Shown here one piece after another: positions 27,984 to 36,426 of a stretch of 64,000 bases of DNA. The notes under the pieces are model-generated. The model did no database searches. It had not been told where the DNA came from and saw only the letters and a list, made by a program, of their open reading frames with translations. Both the position numbers and the translations under genes were made by a program. How positions within the stretch are numbered: the first letter of the stretch is position 1; every line of letters starts with the position of its first letter. The stretch comes from Zhihengliuella salsuginis (GTDB lineage: Bacteria; Actinomycetota; Actinomycetes; Actinomycetales; Micrococcaceae), in contig NZ_BMXK01000013.1 of NCBI RefSeq assembly GCF_014651715.1, positions 1 to 64,000 of the forward strand, written 5' to 3'.

Positions 27984-28060
27984 CGGGGCTGGACGCGCCC
28001 TGCCGGTTTCCTGTCCGAACCGGCCCGGGCGCCCGGTCCCGGCCCGGATAGGGTGGGCGC

Positions 28061-28666
28061 ATGAACACCACGACGCCGCCGCCGACGAGCGCCGTCCTGC
28101 TCTCCGCCGGCGCGGGCACCCGGCTCGGGCGCGGGCCCAAGGCGCTCCTGCCGTTCCGCGGCCGGACGCTCGTCGAGGTCCTCGCCGGCGAGCTCCTGGC
28201 GGGCGGCTGCGCGGAGGTGACGGTGGTGCTCGGCGCCGGCGCGGACGACGCGCGCGCACTGCCCGGACTGTCGGGGTGCACGGTGGTCGAGAACCCGCAG
28301 TGGCAGGACGGTATGGCGGGCTCCTTCCGGGCCGGACTCGGCGCCGCTCTCGCGGGCCACCACGTGATGGTCGCCCTGGTGGACCAGCCCGGGATGAGTG
28401 CCGACGTCGTCGACCGTCTCATCCGCGAGCACCGCGCCGGCCGGGTCACCGCGGCCGCATACTCCGGACCGTCGGGGCCTCGCCGGGGACACCCGCTGAT
28501 CATCGACGCCGCCCTCCGGCGCGCGGCCGCCGATTCGGCGACGGGCGACGCCGGGGCGCGCGGCTTCCTGCGGGACCACCCGGAGTTGATCGACCTCGTC
28601 GACTGCTCCGACCTGGGCGACGGCGGCGACGTGGACACCGCCGCTGACCTCCGTCTGCTCGAATGA
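28061..28666 (+). CDS. MocA-like molybdenum cofactor cytidylyltransferase
   Basis: Nucleotidyltransferase of the MobA/MocA group, 201 residues. The signature LLSAGAGTRLGRGPKALLPF holds the NTP-binding loop and Lys, ALVDQPGMS carries the metal-binding Asp, and GHPLII and GDAGARGFL are MocA-like. It would convert molybdopterin to the cytosine dinucleotide form for a xanthine dehydrogenase-type enzyme. TAGGGT at 28049-28054 lies six bases before the ATG with no Shine-Dalgarno, so the mRNA is probably leaderless. Confidence 0.85.
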   Translation: MNTTTPPPTSAVLLSAGAGTRLGRGPKALLPFRGRTLVEVLAGELLAGGCAEVTVVLGAGADDARALPGLSGCTVVENPQWQDGMAGSFRAGLGAALAGHHVMVALVDQPGMSADVVDRLIREHRAGRVTAAAYSGPSGPRRGHPLIIDAALRRAAADSATGDAGARGFLRDHPELIDLVDCSDLGDGGDVDTAADLRLLE

Positions 28667-28743
28667 ACGATCGCCCTACCGCCGCGCTTCAGCCGACTCC
28701 TCCGGCCAGCGCAGTGGATACCGCTGGCTCGGCGTGGTACATT

Positions 28744-28797
28744 TTGGGTATCACGATCAGCCCGCTCGCCTAACGGCTCGGGCTGATTTTCTTTAAG
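28744..28797 (+). ncRNA. probable abiF-type RNA upstream of an Abi gene
   Basis: Between a -10 like TACATT (28738-28743) and the Abi start lies a short hairpin: ATCAGCCCG (28756-28764) with CGGGCTGAT (28779-28787), an inner GCC-TAAC-GGC helix, and a TTTTCTTT tail. This terminator-like small RNA immediately upstream of an Abi_2 gene fits the abiF RNA motif, proposed as the RNA partner of AbiF-type proteins. The assignment rests on structure and context. Confidence 0.65.
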
Positions 28798-28812
28798 TCC
28801 CTTGGGGGTCCC

Positions 28813-29805
28813 GTGACGGAGTACGCCAAGCAGTGGTTATCGGTTGACGACCAGCTCGCCAAGCTCATAGCCCGGGGTGTCGACGTGGCTGACTCGCGCG
28901 CCGCCCTCAGTTTGCTTCGTTCGGTGGGGTACTACCGTTTGACTGGATATCTTTATCCCTTCCGTCAGTCCGAGACTTACCAGGACGACTCCGGCCGTGT
29001 ACGAGTGCGGGTCCTCAGCGACTACCGCAGTGGTACGTCTCTAAGTGACGCTGGAGCGCTCATCGAGTTCGACCGTCGACTCAGGATGCTCATCCTTGAC
29101 GGAATCGAGCGGATTGAGATCTCGCTTCGCATGCAGGTTGGTTACTTACTGGGCCGCCGTTCGGCCTATTCCCATCTCGATCCGGGCACCTTCGTTCAAA
29201 CCTTCACCGATCCGCAAATCGACCCCGACTCGGGCGGGCCGAGGGCAAGCAAGCACGAACAATGGATTGCGCGGGTCCGTGAGCGCCAAGACGGCTCGGA
29301 TGAGGCCTTTGTCGCTCACTTCCGCGACAAGTATGACGGCCAGATGCCGATCTGGGCGCTGACGGAGATCATGGAGCTGGGACACCTCAACCGCTTGTAC
29401 GGCGGCCTAGTCAACAATCTCGCCACCGACATCGCGAATGCCTATGAAGTTCCATCCAAACGTCTGATGACCAGCTGGATTGCGAGCATTAACTACGTCC
29501 GGAATGTCGCCGCCCACCATGCCCGAATTTTCAACCGAAAACTGGTCACCGCGCCCAAGCGCCCGCCCAAAGGACAGGTCCCGCTCCTTGATCACCTAAG
29601 GGATGAGGATTCTGCGAAGGAAGTGTTCGGTCTATACAACGCTCTGGCGGTCATGGCCTATCTGATTCGGGCCATCGATCCTCATTGCGGGTGGCAGAGG
29701 CGAGTCGTAGAGCTTGTCGAGTGTTTTCCCGAAACGGAGTACGTGTCCAAGCGAGCCATTGGCGGTCCTGATAATTGGTCTCAGCTGAACCTTTGGCGAG
29801 GCTAA
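28813..29805 (+). CDS. Abi family (AbiD/AbiF-like, HEPN) protein
   Basis: Abi_2 protein of 330 residues. Typical elements are WLSVDDQLAKLIARGVDV, SVGYYRLTGYLYPFR, EFDRRLRMLILDGIERIEIS and PIWALTEIMELGHLNRLY. The HEPN active-site motif R-x4-H occurs in YVRNVAAHHARIFNR, suggesting RNase activity. GTG 28813 is the start. Members abort phage infection by blocking growth of the infected cell. The upstream structured RNA may act as antitoxin. GC is lower than in flanking genes, consistent with transfer. Confidence 0.88.
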   Translation: MTEYAKQWLSVDDQLAKLIARGVDVADSRAALSLLRSVGYYRLTGYLYPFRQSETYQDDSGRVRVRVLSDYRSGTSLSDAGALIEFDRRLRMLILDGIERIEISLRMQVGYLLGRRSAYSHLDPGTFVQTFTDPQIDPDSGGPRASKHEQWIARVRERQDGSDEAFVAHFRDKYDGQMPIWALTEIMELGHLNRLYGGLVNNLATDIANAYEVPSKRLMTSWIASINYVRNVAAHHARIFNRKLVTAPKRPPKGQVPLLDHLRDEDSAKEVFGLYNALAVMAYLIRAIDPHCGWQRRVVELVECFPETEYVSKRAIGGPDNWSQLNLWRG

Positions 29806-29851
29806 AGCACGGCTCGTGACCTGGGCTAACTTCTTAGCCAGCGGCACTGAT

Positions 29852-29908
29852 TTAGTCCGAGGACGCTGCCTGCAGTGCCAGGTAAATCTGGTCCCGCGTG
29901 ATGGGCAT
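29852..29908 (-). pseudogene. 3' end remnant of a xanthine dehydrogenase-type gene
   Basis: Nineteen codons on the minus strand, MPITRDQIYLALQAASSD then stop, match the last residues of the resident large subunit (LPIARDRIYLGLKEK). Nothing of the gene remains upstream. It is not a copy of the resident gene but a diverged homologue end. It abuts the MFS remnant on the other strand, so it marks a recombination joint. Confidence 0.6.
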
Positions 29909-30263
29909 CGCCGCCGTCTTCGTGGGCGGGGCCTACCTCATGGCGGGCGGCGGTCTCGGGCTCTGGTTCTACCTCTTGGTCGGCCTCTGGTCGCTGTTCG
30001 CCTGGGCGCGGAGCCCGGCCATGCAGGCGAGCATCATCGCCGTGGACCCGAAGCGCGCCATGCTCTCGGCCGCCCTGGGCATCAGCGGCTTCTACGGCGG
30101 CGTGGGCATCGGCGCAGCCGTCGGCGGACCGCTCCTCGACAACCTGGGAGCGGCAGCTCTGCCACTGGCAGGCTTCGTGTTCGTTGCCGGCGCATGGATC
30201 TTCGCCGCACGGCACGAACGTGTCATCGACTTGTCCGTTTCGTCTAGTGCCAGCTCGCTCTGA
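29898..30263 (+). pseudogene. C-terminal fragment of an MFS transporter
   Basis: A 121-codon frame encodes only the last four membrane spans of a DHA1-type exporter (GLGLWFYLLVGLWSLFAWAR, then PAMQASIIAVDPKRAMLSAA). The first two thirds of the gene are missing. The frame has no ribosome site. It joins the dehydrogenase remnant at about 29900. Confidence 0.75.
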
Positions 30264-30838
30264 CAGGTGTAGCGCTGGATTCGCGGGCGATGGTGGCGGA
30301 CGCGACACCAGGGTCGATCACTGGCGGGCGCGCTGACTCGCGTGTTACCCGAATGTCGATTGTCAGGATGCGAAGGAAGTACCTCGGACTTGTGTGTCGA
30401 ACAGTGGCAAGTTGCAACGGTTCCACGTCTGCCTATGTACTTCCGGGGATGGCTGTGGATTCGAAGAGATGGCCTCGGAGGCTTGTGGTCGGTGAGCAGC
30501 GAAGCGACGGCAAGAGGCGAGAAACGGCTGGGTGACCAAGACGGCGATTCTGATCCGAGTGTGCCTGTGTTCACGGTGGGACTTCACCTCCCACGTATGT
30601 GCGTATGTGTCGGTGCCGCTTCGGCAGGCGCTGGGTGCTACCGGCTGTAAATGGACCACTTTGGACCTGAGAGCAACACAGACGCAGCTGTGGATGCCAT
30701 CTTGAAAGTTGCCTTCGTTGACCGTCTCGGTGACGGCGAGCTGTTGAACAATCCTATTTTGTCTGTGGGAAGGGGAACGAACGCTTTCGATGCCGGACTG
30801 AAGGATTAGCCAACGATCCCTGCAGGTTGCACGGCTGC
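30264..30838. other. gene-poor segment, probable degraded DNA
   Basis: About 575 bases without a credible gene; open frames here have poor composition. On the minus strand around 30250-30330 the translation ends IARESSATP, faintly like the end of a LacI-type regulator. Bases near 30648 (TGTAAATGGACCACTTTGG) recall an insertion-sequence end of the IS21 type. Neither is firm. Confidence 0.4.
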
Positions 30839-30991
30839 ATGATCTCATTAGACGTTTCGCTGCGCGACATTCAATTACTGTCTCGTGCGCTGATGGCCGT
30901 GTGGAGCGCCGCCAAGGTCGATGGGCAGGTCTTTACCATCCCAGGCAATGAAAAACAAGACTTGCGAAATAAGTATTTCGCAGTAGAGTGA
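30839..30991 (+). CDS. possible 50-residue small protein
   Basis: A frame of 50 codons, ATG 30839 to TGA, encodes a plausible amphipathic protein (VSLRDIQLLSRALMAVWSAA, then VFTIPGNEKQDLRNKY). It has no clear ribosome site. Its end runs through the promoter palindrome of the peptide/P450 operon. It may be a real small gene or a decayed fragment. Confidence 0.3.
   Translation: MISLDVSLRDIQLLSRALMAVWSAAKVDGQVFTIPGNEKQDLRNKYFAVE
30962..30989 (+). promoter_or_regulatory. promoter and palindromic operator of the peptide-P450 operon
   Basis: TTGCGA (30962-30967) and TAGAGT (30984-30989) are 16 bases apart. Between them lies a perfect 9-bp inverted repeat TGCGAAATA-AG-TATTTCGCA (30963-30982), placed where a dimeric regulator would control initiation. 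The regulator is not in the island. Confidence 0.55.
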
Positions 30992-31023
30992 CAACACCAG
31001 TTTCCCCAACGGAAGGAAATCAA

Positions 31024-31107
31024 ATGTCACTAATCCGCAAGTTTACCGTTGCAAGGTTGAACAAGCATGTGACGCGCGGGGCCTACAGGAACCAGTACGC
31101 AGCGTAG
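31024..31107 (+). CDS. candidate RiPP precursor peptide
   Basis: A 27-residue peptide gene with a strong ribosome site (GGAAGGAAA at 31011-31019). The N-terminal part is a basic leader (MSLIRKFTVARLNKHVTR). The C-terminus G19-A-Y21-R-N-Q-Y25-A-A has two Tyr spaced i, i+4, the type of residue cross-linked by P450s in biaryl RiPPs. Its position 72 bases before a P450 and an exporter, with the same orientation and low GC, supports the call. The core and the cross-link are predictions; no close known precursor is recalled. Confidence 0.6.
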   Translation: MSLIRKFTVARLNKHVTRGAYRNQYAA

Positions 31108-31122
31108 CGACATTCAGAATCG

Positions 31123-31154
31123 CAATGGGGTCCGACTGGTGTCGGATCCCATTG
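31123..31154 (+). terminator. stem-loop between precursor and P450 genes
   Basis: A 14-bp stem with one G-T pair (31123-31136 with 31141-31154) and a TGGT loop. There is no T-run. It may act as a partial terminator or as an mRNA stabiliser, giving more precursor than enzyme. Confidence 0.65.
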
Positions 31155-31179
31155 TCATGTATTAGAAGTAGGTGAGTCG

Positions 31180-32286
31180 TTGAGGCGGTTCCATCCAAAT
31201 TTGTATAGGGTTATTCAAGAGTGGGAACATGCCAAGGGTGAGCCCCTCCGCGAGATATCTCCCAACGTAATACTGATTCGATCGGCTGACTTGGCAGTTA
31301 AATTCCTGCGTAACCAGAATGAATTGACGATTGAAGAGCAATCTGGATTCTACCGTTCAGCAAATTTCAATCCGTATCCCAAGGGCGTGCGCGAGGAATT
31401 GTCTGGGGGCATTCGTTCTTTGTTGCGTAAGTATGATCCCGCCGATTTGTGGCTGGAGTCCTTTTCCGCAATGAGGGCCGAAACCAGAGGGTGGGGGATT
31501 GAGGTTGTTGGAAGTTACTTTTCAGAAATAATGGTGCGTGCGGGAGTGCGTGAGGAGAAGTCGTCTGTCGGTGCCCTTCGTGCACTTCTGCGGGGGTACA
31601 TTCGAGTAGTAGTCATTGAGGATGCAGTCAACCGCAGATATCCGCTCCGGACTGCCGAATTGAATATGAACTACTATGCAACTCGAGTGGGAAGAATTCT
31701 GCGTCTTCTTGATGATGGGTGGACCGAATCTCCGCGAGATATTATTGATTTGGTCTGTCAAGCTACGGGTGGCTTGTGTGTCAGTGAAGAGGATCTCGGG
31801 GAACTCTATCTTCGATTAATTCTATCTCTCGTGGGATTTACGGGAATTACTCTCGAATGGCTTCTCATTTGTCATCATGAGGCCCTGGGGAAATTGGTCG
31901 ATGGCTATCCGAGTGGAGGGAAAGGTGACGTGATGCGGCTCATAGCTGAGACGCTTCGCGAACATCCTACAGCTTGGCGCTTAGTCCGGACCAGTATTTC
32001 GACAACTACTATCGCGAACAAAGTATTCCCTGCTGGGACAGACTTTGTGGTGCCCACGAGCCCAAAAGCCTTCGAGTACGGGTCGGGGAGACTCCCGATG
32101 AATTGGGGTTTGGCCTTTGGTGTCGGCGAGTCGGCATGTCCTGGCCGAAGCGGGGCACTGGATGCCCTCGCCGAGATCGCGTTCGAAGTCGTGCGCAGAG
32201 GCTATCAGCAGGAGAGTGCTCGTTTGTCGCGCCCTTATGCGGCCTCGCTCCTTGCGCCACCTAGGATGGCGGTGCGTCTTGGATAG
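31180..32286 (+). CDS. cytochrome P450, putative peptide-crosslinking enzyme
   Basis: Haem monooxygenase of 368 residues. P450 landmarks are the I-helix segment VGFTGITLEW (residues 218-227), the K-helix ExxR motif E257-T-L-R260 followed by EHPTAWRLVR, and the haem loop AFGVGESACPGRSGA with Cys320 as iron ligand. The length is slightly short for the family but complete. TTG 31180 follows AGTAGGTGAG; no in-frame ATG or GTG is close. GC is far below the chromosome average. It probably oxidatively couples aromatic side chains of the peptide encoded just upstream. Confidence 0.85.
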   Translation: MRRFHPNLYRVIQEWEHAKGEPLREISPNVILIRSADLAVKFLRNQNELTIEEQSGFYRSANFNPYPKGVREELSGGIRSLLRKYDPADLWLESFSAMRAETRGWGIEVVGSYFSEIMVRAGVREEKSSVGALRALLRGYIRVVVIEDAVNRRYPLRTAELNMNYYATRVGRILRLLDDGWTESPRDIIDLVCQATGGLCVSEEDLGELYLRLILSLVGFTGITLEWLLICHHEALGKLVDGYPSGGKGDVMRLIAETLREHPTAWRLVRTSISTTTIANKVFPAGTDFVVPTSPKAFEYGSGRLPMNWGLAFGVGESACPGRSGALDALAEIAFEVVRRGYQQESARLSRPYAASLLAPPRMAVRLG

Positions 32287-33529
32287 CACGGCGAATACGG
32301 CGGCCGGCAGCCAAACGGGCCCGTCACTTCGCAGGCGTCTCTACCTCTCCAACGGTGCGGACATTGCCGGGAGGTCGCTCGCTGACTACGTCGTCGACGT
32401 CGTGGCAGTCACCGCACTCGGGGCGACTGCGATGCAGATGGGTGCCCTGAACATCCTGCAGACGCTGCCCATGATGTTGCTGGCGGTGCCGATCGGTGTC
32501 CTGATCGACCGTCGACCGACAATCGGTCCACTCATCGGTTCTCAGATGCTCAGGGCGATCCTCGTCGCAGTTCTGGTAGTCGTCGCCAGTGCTGATGCCC
32601 TCACACTGTTGTGGATTGCGGCGTTCGTTCTGCTGTCGAGCCTGCTGGCGACATTCGCGGAGGCGGGGCAGGCAAAAGCCGTCTTGCGCGCGTCTGCCCG
32701 CGGTCATGTTGGCGGGGCTTACGGCGTGCTTCAGGCCAGCGACTCTGCTGCCGGCATCATCGTTCCCGCGGGGGCGGGCATTCTGCTGACGCAAGCGGGT
32801 GCACCGACCGCGCTGGCTGTCTCCGCAGCGTTGGCGCTCGTCGGTGGACTGTCGCTGTTGACGCGCGCTTGGCAGTCGAAGCCCCACGGCGGGGAGGCGG
32901 CTGTCGACGAGCCCTCGATGACCGGCGTGGCGGCGTTTGCTCGCGAGGCCGGAGAGGGGTTTGCCGTCATCTGGAAAAACCGCCGCCTGCGATATCTGAC
33001 GGCGGCCTCGTTTCTCCTCGGCGGCGGGCTCGCTGCATACTCGGCGATCGAAGCGATCTATGTTCTTCGAGACCTCGGCGTCGCCGTCGTCGAGTTCGGC
33101 GTGATCGTCTCGGCAGGTGCCGCCGGCGGCCTGATCGGCAGCGTTGCTTCCGGCCCGTTTGCCCGCCGCTTCGGACGGTTGCGACTGACCCGCGTCACCT
33201 TCATCTTCACGATACTGTGCGCGCTACTGCTCTTCGTCCCTCTGATGTACCCCCGCGTCGCCGTGCCGGTGCTGGCGCTGCAGTTCTTCCTGTGGGGTGT
33301 CTTCGTCGTCGCAAACAACGTTCAGGTGGCCGCTCTGGTCGTCGAGACCGTGCCCGAGTCCGCCGTTGGCCGCGTCATTGCGACGCGGCGAACAGTCACC
33401 ATGGCCTCGATTCTCTTGGGCAGCCTGCTTGGAGGTGCACTCGCGGGGGCGGTCGGGACGACCTGGGTTCTGGTGCTGTTCGTCGCGCTGCTGACCGGTG
33501 CCGCCATCTGCGCCTTCAGGGCCGACTAG
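32279..33529 (+). CDS. MFS exporter of the peptide-P450 cluster
   Basis: Twelve-span MFS protein, 416 residues, of the enterobactin-exporter-like type. It starts LDSTANTAAGSQTGPSLRRR, and a characteristic loop is PIGVLIDRRPTIGPLIGS. The TTG at 32279 overlaps the P450 stop by eight bases; this is the best start in frame. Co-translation with the P450 suggests it exports the modified peptide and may give self-protection. GC is nearer to the chromosome than in the P450 gene. The gene converges on the dehydrogenase operon. Confidence 0.82.
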   Translation: MDSTANTAAGSQTGPSLRRRLYLSNGADIAGRSLADYVVDVVAVTALGATAMQMGALNILQTLPMMLLAVPIGVLIDRRPTIGPLIGSQMLRAILVAVLVVVASADALTLLWIAAFVLLSSLLATFAEAGQAKAVLRASARGHVGGAYGVLQASDSAAGIIVPAGAGILLTQAGAPTALAVSAALALVGGLSLLTRAWQSKPHGGEAAVDEPSMTGVAAFAREAGEGFAVIWKNRRLRYLTAASFLLGGGLAAYSAIEAIYVLRDLGVAVVEFGVIVSAGAAGGLIGSVASGPFARRFGRLRLTRVTFIFTILCALLLFVPLMYPRVAVPVLALQFFLWGVFVVANNVQVAALVVETVPESAVGRVIATRRTVTMASILLGSLLGGALAGAVGTTWVLVLFVALLTGAAICAFRAD

Positions 33530-33555
33530 GGCGGCCTCTTCACCACTGCCGACCT

Positions 33556-36426
33556 CTACCGGCTGGGTTGACCCGCCCGTGCCGGTTCCGTTGCGGCGTT
33601 CCCGTGCGCTTCGGCGGCCGCCTTCTCCTTCAGGCCCAGGTAGATCCGGTCCCGGGCGATCGGCAGCTCGCCGAACCGCACGCCGGTGGCGTTGCGGATC
33701 GCGTTGGCCAGCGCCGGGGCCACCGGGTTGAACGGGCTCTCGCTCATGGACTTGGCGCCCAGCGGACCCAGCTCGTCGTTGGTGTCGGCGAAGCACACCT
33801 CGCTGCGCGGCACGTCCGCGAAGGAGGGGACGTGGTACTGCCGCAGGATGTCCGTGGTGACCCGCCCGGCGTCGTCGATCCGCACCTCCTCGTAGAGGGC
33901 GGCGCCGAGCGCCTGCGCGATCCCGCCCTCGATCTGGCCGCGGCACTGGCGCGGGTTCACCACCACGCCGGCGTCGGCGGCCTGCACGCTCTGCAGGATG
34001 CGCAGCTCGCCGGTCCCGGTGTTCACGGCCACCCGGAAGCCGTGGACGTTGAACGCGACCGAGCGCGGCGTCCCGCCCCAGCGCCCCTCGGCGGCGAGAT
34101 CCACGCCGAGCCGGGCGGCGGCGTCGTACACCTCGGCCAGCGGCAGGCGGCGGGTCCCCGCGCAGACGACGGCGTCGGCCTCGAGCACGCAGTCCTCCTC
34201 GGCGGCACCGTTCACCGCGGCAGCCGCGGCACGGATCCGGCGGGCCAGCTCCTGCGCGGCGAGCAGCGTGGCCTGCCCCGCGACGACGGTCCCGGTGGAG
34301 CCGAACGCGCCGGTGTCGTGGTCCACCAGGTCGGTGTCCGACTGCCGCACCGCGACGCGCGACGCGGCGGTCCCGAGCGCCGTCGCCGCGAGCTGGGCGT
34401 GCACCGTGGTGGTGCCGTTGCCGAACTCGGCGGTGCCGACGGCGGCGTCGTACCCGCCGTCGGGCCGCAGCCGCAGCCGCGTGTGCGAGTAGTGCCCCCG
34501 CGGCGGGACGGTGTCGATCATGGACAGCGCCGTGCCGGTGCCGGCGACCCACTCGGGGCCGAGGTCGTCGAGCCCCGCGGCCCGGAGGCGCTCGGCGCCG
34601 CGGCCCAGCGCGTCGCGGACCAGGGAGATGCACTGGTCCAGGCCGTAGCTGCCGTAGCGGACGTCCTCCTCCGGCTCCGGCTGGGTGGAGAGCATGTCGT
34701 CGCCGGGCCGGACCATGTTGCGGGCGCGGAACTCCAGCGGGTCCATGCCGATGCCGGCGGCGAGCTCGTCGACGGCCGACTCGATCGCGAAGATCATCTG
34801 GCTCAGCCCGTACCCGCGGAACGCGCCGGACGGCACGGTGTTCGTGTAGACCGCCTGCGCGTCAACCCGCTTGTTCGCGCAGTTGTAGACGGCCAGCGAC
34901 TCCCCGCAGCCGTGGAACATGACGCCGGGGGAGTGGTTGCCGTAGGCGCCGGCGTCCGTGGTGACGTCCAGCTGCAGCGCGGTGAGCGACCCGTCGCGGC
35001 TCGCGCCGGCCTTGAGCCGGATCTCGAAAGGGTGCCGCGTGGTGGTGGCCGCGAACTGCTCGGTCCGGGTCAGCTCCAGCTGCACCGGGCGGCCCAGCTT
35101 GAGCGCGGCCAGGGCCACGAGGTCCTCCGTCAGGACCTCTTGCTTGCCGCCGAACCCGCCGCCCACGCGGCCGGTGAGCACGCGCACGCGCTCCTCGGAC
35201 AGCCCGAAGATCCTGGCCAGGGTGCGTTTGGCCAGGAAGGGCACCTGGGTGGAGCTGCGCACCACCAGCCGGTCGCCGCCGTCGGGCCCTGCGCCGGAGG
35301 CGGGCTCGAGCCAGGCGATCGCGGCGTGGGTCTCCAGGGCCACGTGCTGGACCCGCTGGGTCCGGTAGGTCTTCTCGTGGATCACGTCCGCTGCGGCGAG
35401 CCCCGCGTCGACGTCACCTAGCTCGGAGTGCACCTCGGCCACCACGTTCCGCTCCGGCCGCGCGATGCGCGAGGCTTCCGCGTCCTTGTCCCCGTGGATC
35501 GCGGGCGCGCCGGGGCGCAGCGCGTCCCCGGGGGTGAGGACCGGCTCCAGCAGTTCGTAGTCGACGACGACGGCGCGCGCGCCGGCCTCCGCCGCGGCCA
35601 CGGACTCGGCGACGACGGCGGCCACCCGCTGGCCGGCGAACCGCACGACGTCGTCCAGCACCCGGGTGTCGTCCGGGTCGTCGGTGTGGATCTCGTGCTG
35701 GGCGGTCGAGAAGAGCTGCGCCGGCGCGTCCTCGTGGGTGAGAACGGCCACGACGCCCGGGATCGCCAGGGCCGCCGAGGCGTCGATCGAGCGGATCCGG
35801 GCGCGGGCGTGCGCCGAGCGCAGCACCTTCAGGTGCAGGAGGCCGGGCAGCTCCTCGGGCGGGACGTCCAGGGTGTAGCGGGCGGCGCCCGTAACGACGG
35901 CGTTCCCGGCCGGCGCCGGGACGTCGTCGCCCAGCCGGCCCGGGCAGCCGTCCCGGACGGATTCCGCGGCCTCGTCCGCCGCGCCGTGCGGCTCCGCCCC
36001 GACGGCGTCGGCGATGGACCGGTAGCCGGTGCAGCGGCAGAGGTTCCCCTTGAGGCTGCGCGGCAGGTTGGCCTTCTGCTCCTCGTCGAGCGCGGACGCC
36101 GTCATCATCATGCCGGCGGTGCAGAAGCCGCACTGGAAGCCCTGCTCGGCGAGGAACTGCTCCTGCACCGGGTGGAGCCCGTCGCCGTTGTCCGTCGCGG
36201 CCCCCAGGCCCTCGATCGTGGTGACGGCGGTCCCGTCGGCGCGGACGGCAGGGAAGAGGCAGCTGTGCACCGGGGTCCCGTCGACGTGGACGGTGCAGGC
36301 GCCGCAGTCGCCGGCGTCGCACCCCTTCTTGACGCCGAAGTTCCCCTGCTCGCGCACGAACGTCCGCAGGCACTGGCCCGGCCGGGGCTCTCCCGCGGCA
36401 GGTGTTCCGTTGATCTCGATGGCCAT
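33556..36426 (-). CDS. xanthine dehydrogenase, fused [2Fe-2S] and molybdopterin subunit
   Basis: Oxidises hypoxanthine and xanthine to urate, 956 residues. The N-terminal ferredoxin domain has Cys36, 41, 44 and 56; the second [2Fe-2S] domain has Cys99, 102, 130 and 132 (QCGFC and LCRCTGY). The large molybdopterin domain shows GRVGGGFGGKQE, GAFRGYGLSQ and, near the end, GAKSMSESPFNP with the catalytic Glu. Small and large subunits are fused, and FAD is on the next gene upstream. It ends the leftward operon guanine deaminase, permease, xdhC, FAD subunit. Confidence 0.94.
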   Translation of the reverse strand: MAIEINGTPAAGEPRPGQCLRTFVREQGNFGVKKGCDAGDCGACTVHVDGTPVHSCLFPAVRADGTAVTTIEGLGAATDNGDGLHPVQEQFLAEQGFQCGFCTAGMMMTASALDEEQKANLPRSLKGNLCRCTGYRSIADAVGAEPHGAADEAAESVRDGCPGRLGDDVPAPAGNAVVTGAARYTLDVPPEELPGLLHLKVLRSAHARARIRSIDASAALAIPGVVAVLTHEDAPAQLFSTAQHEIHTDDPDDTRVLDDVVRFAGQRVAAVVAESVAAAEAGARAVVVDYELLEPVLTPGDALRPGAPAIHGDKDAEASRIARPERNVVAEVHSELGDVDAGLAAADVIHEKTYRTQRVQHVALETHAAIAWLEPASGAGPDGGDRLVVRSSTQVPFLAKRTLARIFGLSEERVRVLTGRVGGGFGGKQEVLTEDLVALAALKLGRPVQLELTRTEQFAATTTRHPFEIRLKAGASRDGSLTALQLDVTTDAGAYGNHSPGVMFHGCGESLAVYNCANKRVDAQAVYTNTVPSGAFRGYGLSQMIFAIESAVDELAAGIGMDPLEFRARNMVRPGDDMLSTQPEPEEDVRYGSYGLDQCISLVRDALGRGAERLRAAGLDDLGPEWVAGTGTALSMIDTVPPRGHYSHTRLRLRPDGGYDAAVGTAEFGNGTTTVHAQLAATALGTAASRVAVRQSDTDLVDHDTGAFGSTGTVVAGQATLLAAQELARRIRAAAAAVNGAAEEDCVLEADAVVCAGTRRLPLAEVYDAAARLGVDLAAEGRWGGTPRSVAFNVHGFRVAVNTGTGELRILQSVQAADAGVVVNPRQCRGQIEGGIAQALGAALYEEVRIDDAGRVTTDILRQYHVPSFADVPRSEVCFADTNDELGPLGAKSMSESPFNPVAPALANAIRNATGVRFGELPIARDRIYLGLKEKAAAEAHGNAATEPARAGQPSR

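Follow-up and report, generated by a model that had tools for sequence, protein, structure and literature searches.

Several groups of ribosomally synthesized and post-translationally modified peptides (RiPPs) carry links that are installed between aromatic side chains by cytochrome P450 enzymes. The core of cittilins, one of these groups, is YIYY. Known P450-made bridges in RiPPs connect residue i with i+1, i+2, or i+3 (available part of PMC11002830), and the rings of biarylitides and cittilins comprise three or four residues (available part of PMC13192836). It was also reported that ScaB yields modified tetra-, penta-, and, rarely, hexapeptides (PMC12352619), and a wider ring may occur within the ScaB family. 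Here, a locus in a 64,000-nucleotide stretch from Zhihengliuella salsuginis (Micrococcaceae; positions 1 to 64,000 of contig NZ_BMXK01000013.1, referred to as the window) is compared with these systems and with its relatives. It encodes a short peptide with two tyrosines four residues apart, a P450, and a transporter of the major facilitator superfamily (MFS). The comparison of loci upholds the original prediction, made from the window alone, of a P450-modified RiPP cluster, and this reading is well supported. The locus is probably a minimal cluster in which the P450 would join Tyr21 to Tyr25 (-2 Da) and the MFS protein would export the product. With tyrosines at i and i+4, it departs from the bridges described in the accessible text of PMC11002830 (i+1 to i+3), and the ring would be wider than the two- to four-residue ones described.

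The peptide, the stem-loop, the P450, and the overlapping MFS gene were all found where the original prediction had placed them. The precursor gene (31024..31107, + strand) has an ATG start preceded by AACGGAAGGAAATCAA and encodes the 27-residue peptide MSLIRKFTVARLNKHVTRGAYRNQYAA, in which a leader of about 20 residues is followed by Tyr21-x3-Tyr25 and the short tail AA. A spacer with a strong hairpin (31108..31179, +; 15-bp stem, 4-base loop) separates it from the gene of the proposed Tyr-Tyr macrocyclase, a P450 of 368 amino acids with a TTG start (31180..32286, +). The MFS gene of the proposed exporter (32279..33529, +), also with a TTG start, overlaps the P450 gene by 8 bases.

Relatives were sought by P450 similarity alone, and the peptide played no part in their choice. 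P450s scoring above 200 bits were taken as the family, the scoring model having been derived from 17 of these rows. A small open reading frame (ORF) with a ribosome-binding site (RBS) and a Y-x3-Y motif lies just upstream of 22/22 distinct P450s above this threshold, as against 1/80 lower-scoring P450 ORFs, whose gene starts were extrapolated from the model. Extending the control span to 1100 bp, which lay fully within the available sequence for only 28 of the 80, left the contrast as it was. Thus, no intact or near-intact family member occurs without the peptide, and 79 of the 80 P450s outside the family do; the latter include one decayed family fragment (L065), which was counted among them. 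L100, found after the model had been built, has MKAIHSLINSAVAESLARAKYSRNYGQPPPR. Since the same layout recurs in relatives, it is more than chance. Fourteen of the 22 loci come from related Streptomyces, and the independent weight is therefore that of eight deep lineages plus Streptomyces. The idea that a small-molecule P450 merely has an accidental small ORF upstream could draw on the window P450, whose divergence prevents its placement when it is taken by itself, and on the 43 small RBS-preceded ORFs found ahead of the 80 controls, so that small ORFs as such are common; the 22/22 to 1/80 contrast makes it highly improbable, and it is already disfavoured.

The single exception among the 80, L072 (KYYIRMYPV), is probably another peptide-linked P450; on its reverse complement, near base 863, a candidate precursor, MSIFHSIKAKRAAASAGKYYIRMYPV, lies directly 5' of a different P450. 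In addition, a small ORF encoding MKRIIERLTRKTMPGRYSWH lies directly 5' of another P450 in L071 (near base 707) and perhaps belongs to a further P450-RiPP type.

A script-based search found peptides with the Y-x3-Y motif at all 22 loci, and Tyr21 and Tyr25 are kept as Y-x3-Y in 32/32 distinct peptides so found, which answers the earlier proposal to check their conservation. The precursors are short and basic (among 19 listed examples, 25-31 residues), with the motif close to the C-terminus, where the two tyrosines are the only invariant residues. Besides AYRNQYAA of the window, C-terminal examples include AYSKQYSW (L047), AYSKQYTW (L049), AYSNQYGGGN (L048), GYSSNYGKAN (L058), AYSTQYGGT (L061), AYKNQYGGPQ (L070), and KYSRNYGQPPPR (L100), together with QYGDRYGHNA (pep2) and GYFVGYGQQD (pep1) from Streptomyces. 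Among the 32 peptides, the second tyrosine is followed by Gly in 29 and by Ala, Ser, or Thr in one each, and it is frequently preceded by Gln, Asn, or Arg. That last feature would suit a RiPP in which the P450 performs other chemistry, namely hydroxylation of Tyr, a C-N bond from Tyr to Asn, Gln, or Arg, or two separate modifications, and P450s of RiPP routes are also known to hydroxylate, epoxidise, and nitrate (accessible parts of PMC13192836 and PMC13417212). Yet 14 different triplets occur between the tyrosines, among them FVG and FIN, which lack the polar pattern, while both tyrosines stay, and an invariant aromatic pair usually marks a cross-link; such chemistry is therefore regarded as unlikely.

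With regard to the described families, the core was said to resemble none of them, and this has held: the biarylitide pentapeptide MxYxH, the cittilin YIYY, and the bitryptide WxxW were each found in 0/32 peptides. The KSLK-like leader motif, which atropopeptides require and which was taken from the motif list in the available part of PMC11450843, was likewise found in 0/32. Atropopeptides (the tryptorubin family, with TrpB) are similar in having a two-gene cluster, a short leader-bearing precursor, and a P450 that couples aromatic side chains, as far as that part of PMC11450843 describes them. They differ in that the present family has tyrosines only, without a conserved core Trp, and has an MFS gene outside Streptomyces. 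Trp at core position 2, typical of atropopeptides, is not a feature of the family peptides; 7 of the 8 non-Streptomyces peptides have no Trp beside Y-x3-Y other than the terminal residue of L047/L049, and Trp at -3 occurs in Streptomyces pep1 only. Biarylitides (BytO, P450Blt) and RufO share with the locus a precursor, one P450, and Tyr as the coupling residue; however, the precursors here are not pentapeptides ending in YxH, and the spacing is i+4 rather than i+2.

Cittilin-type RiPPs (CitB, shandoamide, syrinamide, citreamide) also combine a leader, a Tyr-rich core, and P450 coupling (accessible portion of PMC12352619), but the i+4 spacing sets the present peptides apart from cittilins, a distinction drawn from the core motif. 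L072 looks closer to the cittilin type. A Tyr-Tyr C-C bridge is made on a ribosomal peptide by the aminopyruvatide P450 ApyO, which differs in its YLY (i+2) site and in its large cluster with a multinuclear non-heme iron-dependent oxidative enzyme (MNIO) and a radical S-adenosylmethionine (rSAM) enzyme (excerpt of PMC13192836). Judged by sequence, the putative P450-modified RiPP cluster thus fails the tests for atropopeptides, biarylitides, and cittilins. No description of a Y-x3-Y family was found in the literature searched; the principal genome-mining studies fell outside it. Among the papers listed (30 of 47), none contained the strings YFVGYG, QYGDRYG, LRALSGE, or AYSNQY, and the matches shown, to YxxxY/YX3Y, came from unrelated fields.

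The window P450 carries ETLR (ExxR) and FGVGESACPG, both of which align with the motifs of its relatives. It is divergent, matching Pfam p450 at E 0.0055 only, under the curated cut-off, while five relatives scanned alongside gave E 8e-14 to 9e-23; identities within the family fall below 30%. In a tree of 58 proteins, which included the RufO-like L118 and two other peptide-linked P450s, the 21 family rows long enough for inclusion formed one clade (100/100, all 200 bootstrap trees). L118 was placed elsewhere, so that the tree check proposed earlier sets the family apart from this RufO-like enzyme, whose substrate is MRYLH, and from the remaining P450s in the sample. By eye, L118 has MRYLH adjoining the P450 and a nitric-oxide-synthase-like gene. 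The window protein and L048 are both long-branched, and it is unsure whether they truly pair. Closest to the family stands a group of 28 rows, including L023-L029 and L101-L113, among which no Y-x3-Y peptide occurs. A model of the relative L050 reached a predicted local distance difference test score (pLDDT) of 74.9, and each of the 50 PDB matches listed for it is a P450, which would indicate the fold only. The best solved sequence relative is 9ulw_A ("Cytochrome P450"; E 2.7e-5 to the window P450, 3.8e-21 to L017), whose SDFF and RLWPVAW stretches resemble, by eye, the peptide-less sister clade L101-L113, found in large genomes of one family. A literature search for 9ulw_A retrieved no paper naming it and no function.

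The MFS assignment is clear, with PF07690 at E 2.3e-36 in the window and an MFS_1 domain above the cut-off there and at seven other non-Streptomyces loci. As part of the cluster, a homologous MFS gene stands at 8/8 non-Streptomyces loci, window included, and none was found at the Streptomyces loci within the available sequence. It lies directly downstream on the same strand at six of the eight, overlapping the P450 gene or within about 6 bases of it (window, L066, L067, L068, L061, L115); in L114 it comes directly before the peptide gene, and in L058 it follows at a distance of 3.4 kb. A tandem MFS duplication is seen beside the P450 in L068 (5836-7134 and 7282-8580).

The hairpin 3' of the window peptide has a folding energy of -32.5 kcal/mol (z -6.15), equalled in 0/200 shuffles, and hairpins of unlike sequence occur within 75 nt downstream of the peptide gene at 8/8 non-Streptomyces loci (z -2.3 to -6.1). 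Rfam gave no match in window positions 28000-34000. Inducible resistance operons share the arrangement of a short ORF, a hairpin, and then an enzyme and a pump. Hence the short ORF might be read as a regulatory leader peptide, with stalling or attenuation at the positionally conserved hairpin controlling a P450 and MFS detoxification operon. This is quite improbable: the hairpins have no T-run and the window scan gives no + strand terminator, the MFS gene precedes the peptide in L114, two different peptides stand in tandem at most Streptomyces loci, anything from 2 to 6 residues separates the second Tyr from the stop, and codons change synonymously while residues are kept. The last 18 codons of L047/L049 differ by 8 synonymous and 4 non-synonymous changes, and pooled pairs gave 280 versus 303 for pep1 (11 loci) and 240 versus 370 for pep2 (10 loci).

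For the preferred reading, in which the P450 links the two tyrosines, the following course can be proposed. The leader of about 20 residues would dock on the P450 and the C-terminal Y-x3-Y would enter its active site, where hydrogen abstraction from the tyrosines would couple them through a C-C biaryl or C-O ether bond with loss of 2 Da, giving a ring that spans five residues. An unlinked host protease would trim the leader, the MFS pump would export the product, and the hairpin may allow more peptide than enzyme to be made. Both the cross-link and the export are suggested by gene layout and residue conservation, the RBS-preceded precursor, the hairpin, the dedicated P450, and, outside Streptomyces, the MFS gene being kept together across distant actinobacteria.

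Several observations weigh against this proposal. The window P450 is long-branched and is missing short segments that its relatives have, and its AlphaFold model is of poor quality (pLDDT 55), with a best PDB match at a template modelling (TM) score of 0.41. The sister P450s L101-L113 and L023-L029 show no such peptide, so the wider P450 group as a whole is not one of RiPP enzymes. L065, a decayed Streptomyces family P450, has no recognisable peptide. A tblastn search with the MFS proteins found no homologue at 16 Streptomyces loci (of unequal flank lengths), and a strong hairpin (z <= -2) is present at just 5/13 Streptomyces loci. Neither a protease nor a redox partner lies within the cluster. 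In addition, the family P450 could hydroxylate Tyr or join it to another residue.

At 12/14 distinct Streptomyces loci, two different precursors, pep1 and pep2, both with Y-x3-Y, stand in tandem; L052 has pep1 only and L057 pep2 only. In L022/L062, the family P450 is split in two frames and both peptides are intact. A tblastn search of plasmids with the window P450 returned a single record, Streptomyces KN37, a further locus with pep1 and pep2, near which the MFS gene is unrelated to the cluster MFS at the tblastn threshold used. More tentatively, the loci may form a separate RiPP family in at least four actinobacterial families, with a five-residue i to i+4 ring, an MFS exporter outside Streptomyces, and paired Streptomyces precursors; jointly with this, and with the same reserve, one Streptomyces P450 would have to accept both WHGYFVGYG-type and NQYGDRYG-type precursors.

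The recurrence of the layout and the two tyrosines in distant actinobacteria points to a family of cyclic natural peptides about which little is known. P450 macrocyclases are sought as biocatalysts for rigid cyclic peptides, and an invariant Tyr-x3-Tyr with 14 middle triplets, tandem precursors per enzyme, and members below 30% identity offer a ready substrate-scope series, and the proposal of a larger ring can be put to the test. Such precursors are easily missed: the KN37 annotation holds the P450, and neither precursor is in the table shown.

The family was encountered in few genomes. In a class sample of 394, one full-length relative was found besides the window protein (G277, genus g37, 32%, E 4.6e-23), and 14 further genomes gave partial matches (E 1e-3 to 1e-5). 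The Streptomyces-type genus g37 (392 genomes) held five close relatives of the G277 protein (71-77%; one split in two frames), and hundreds of its other P450s, at 30-40% over part of their length, were excluded. G976, G778, and G771 came from the window's own family (245 genomes), G1221 from the order (396 genomes; 218 bits, next match 94 bits), and G1341 from 47 genomes of the family to which G1221 belongs. In 250 genomes of another family, 13 matches scored 134-150 bits and nothing scored higher, and no relative was found in the other 4 genomes searched in the window's genus. A named collection supplied 16 loci, comprising 14 from Streptomyces (one of them the L065 fragment), one from a Pseudonocardiales metagenome-assembled genome (MAG), and one from Allokutzneria. 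Given so few relatives across the class, order, family, and genus searches, the P450/peptide family is rare and patchy. A scan of genome contigs for close relatives that used just the window P450 yielded 26 pattern matches, and a scan of viral contigs with two sequences yielded 53; none was confirmed in either. Matches at about 30% identity were not all counted as family, since neither L023-L033 nor L101-L113 have a Y-x3-Y peptide.

The low GC content noted originally stands for the peptide gene (53.6%) and the P450 gene (52.6%) against 70.0% for the whole window; the MFS gene, at 66.1%, is mildly GC-poor only. Eight relatives were measured, and in each the P450 gene has a lower GC content than the surrounding DNA; the difference is 0.4 points for L058, 2.6 for L116, and 7 to 13 for the others. 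This pattern fits horizontal transfer without proving it. About 40-60 bases 5' of the peptide start, a perfect 20-bp palindrome (30963..30982, no strand; 9-bp arms, 2-bp spacer; TGCGAAATA-AG-TATTTCGCA) is a possible operator; an arm of 9 was reached in 2/300 mononucleotide shuffles, and no counterpart with 9-bp arms, hence no shared operator, was found at the other seven loci. The upstream region, previously read as gene scars, is in part an intact gene: a full-length Abi_2/AbiD-like ORF (28813-29805, +; Pfam Abi_2 163.9 bits, PADLOC AbiD 193.9 bits), whose product is a candidate phage-defence protein just upstream of the cluster. Between them, a 121-aa ORF (29898-30263, +) without a Pfam match resembles, by eye, the C-terminal part of an MFS transporter and is possibly a remnant.
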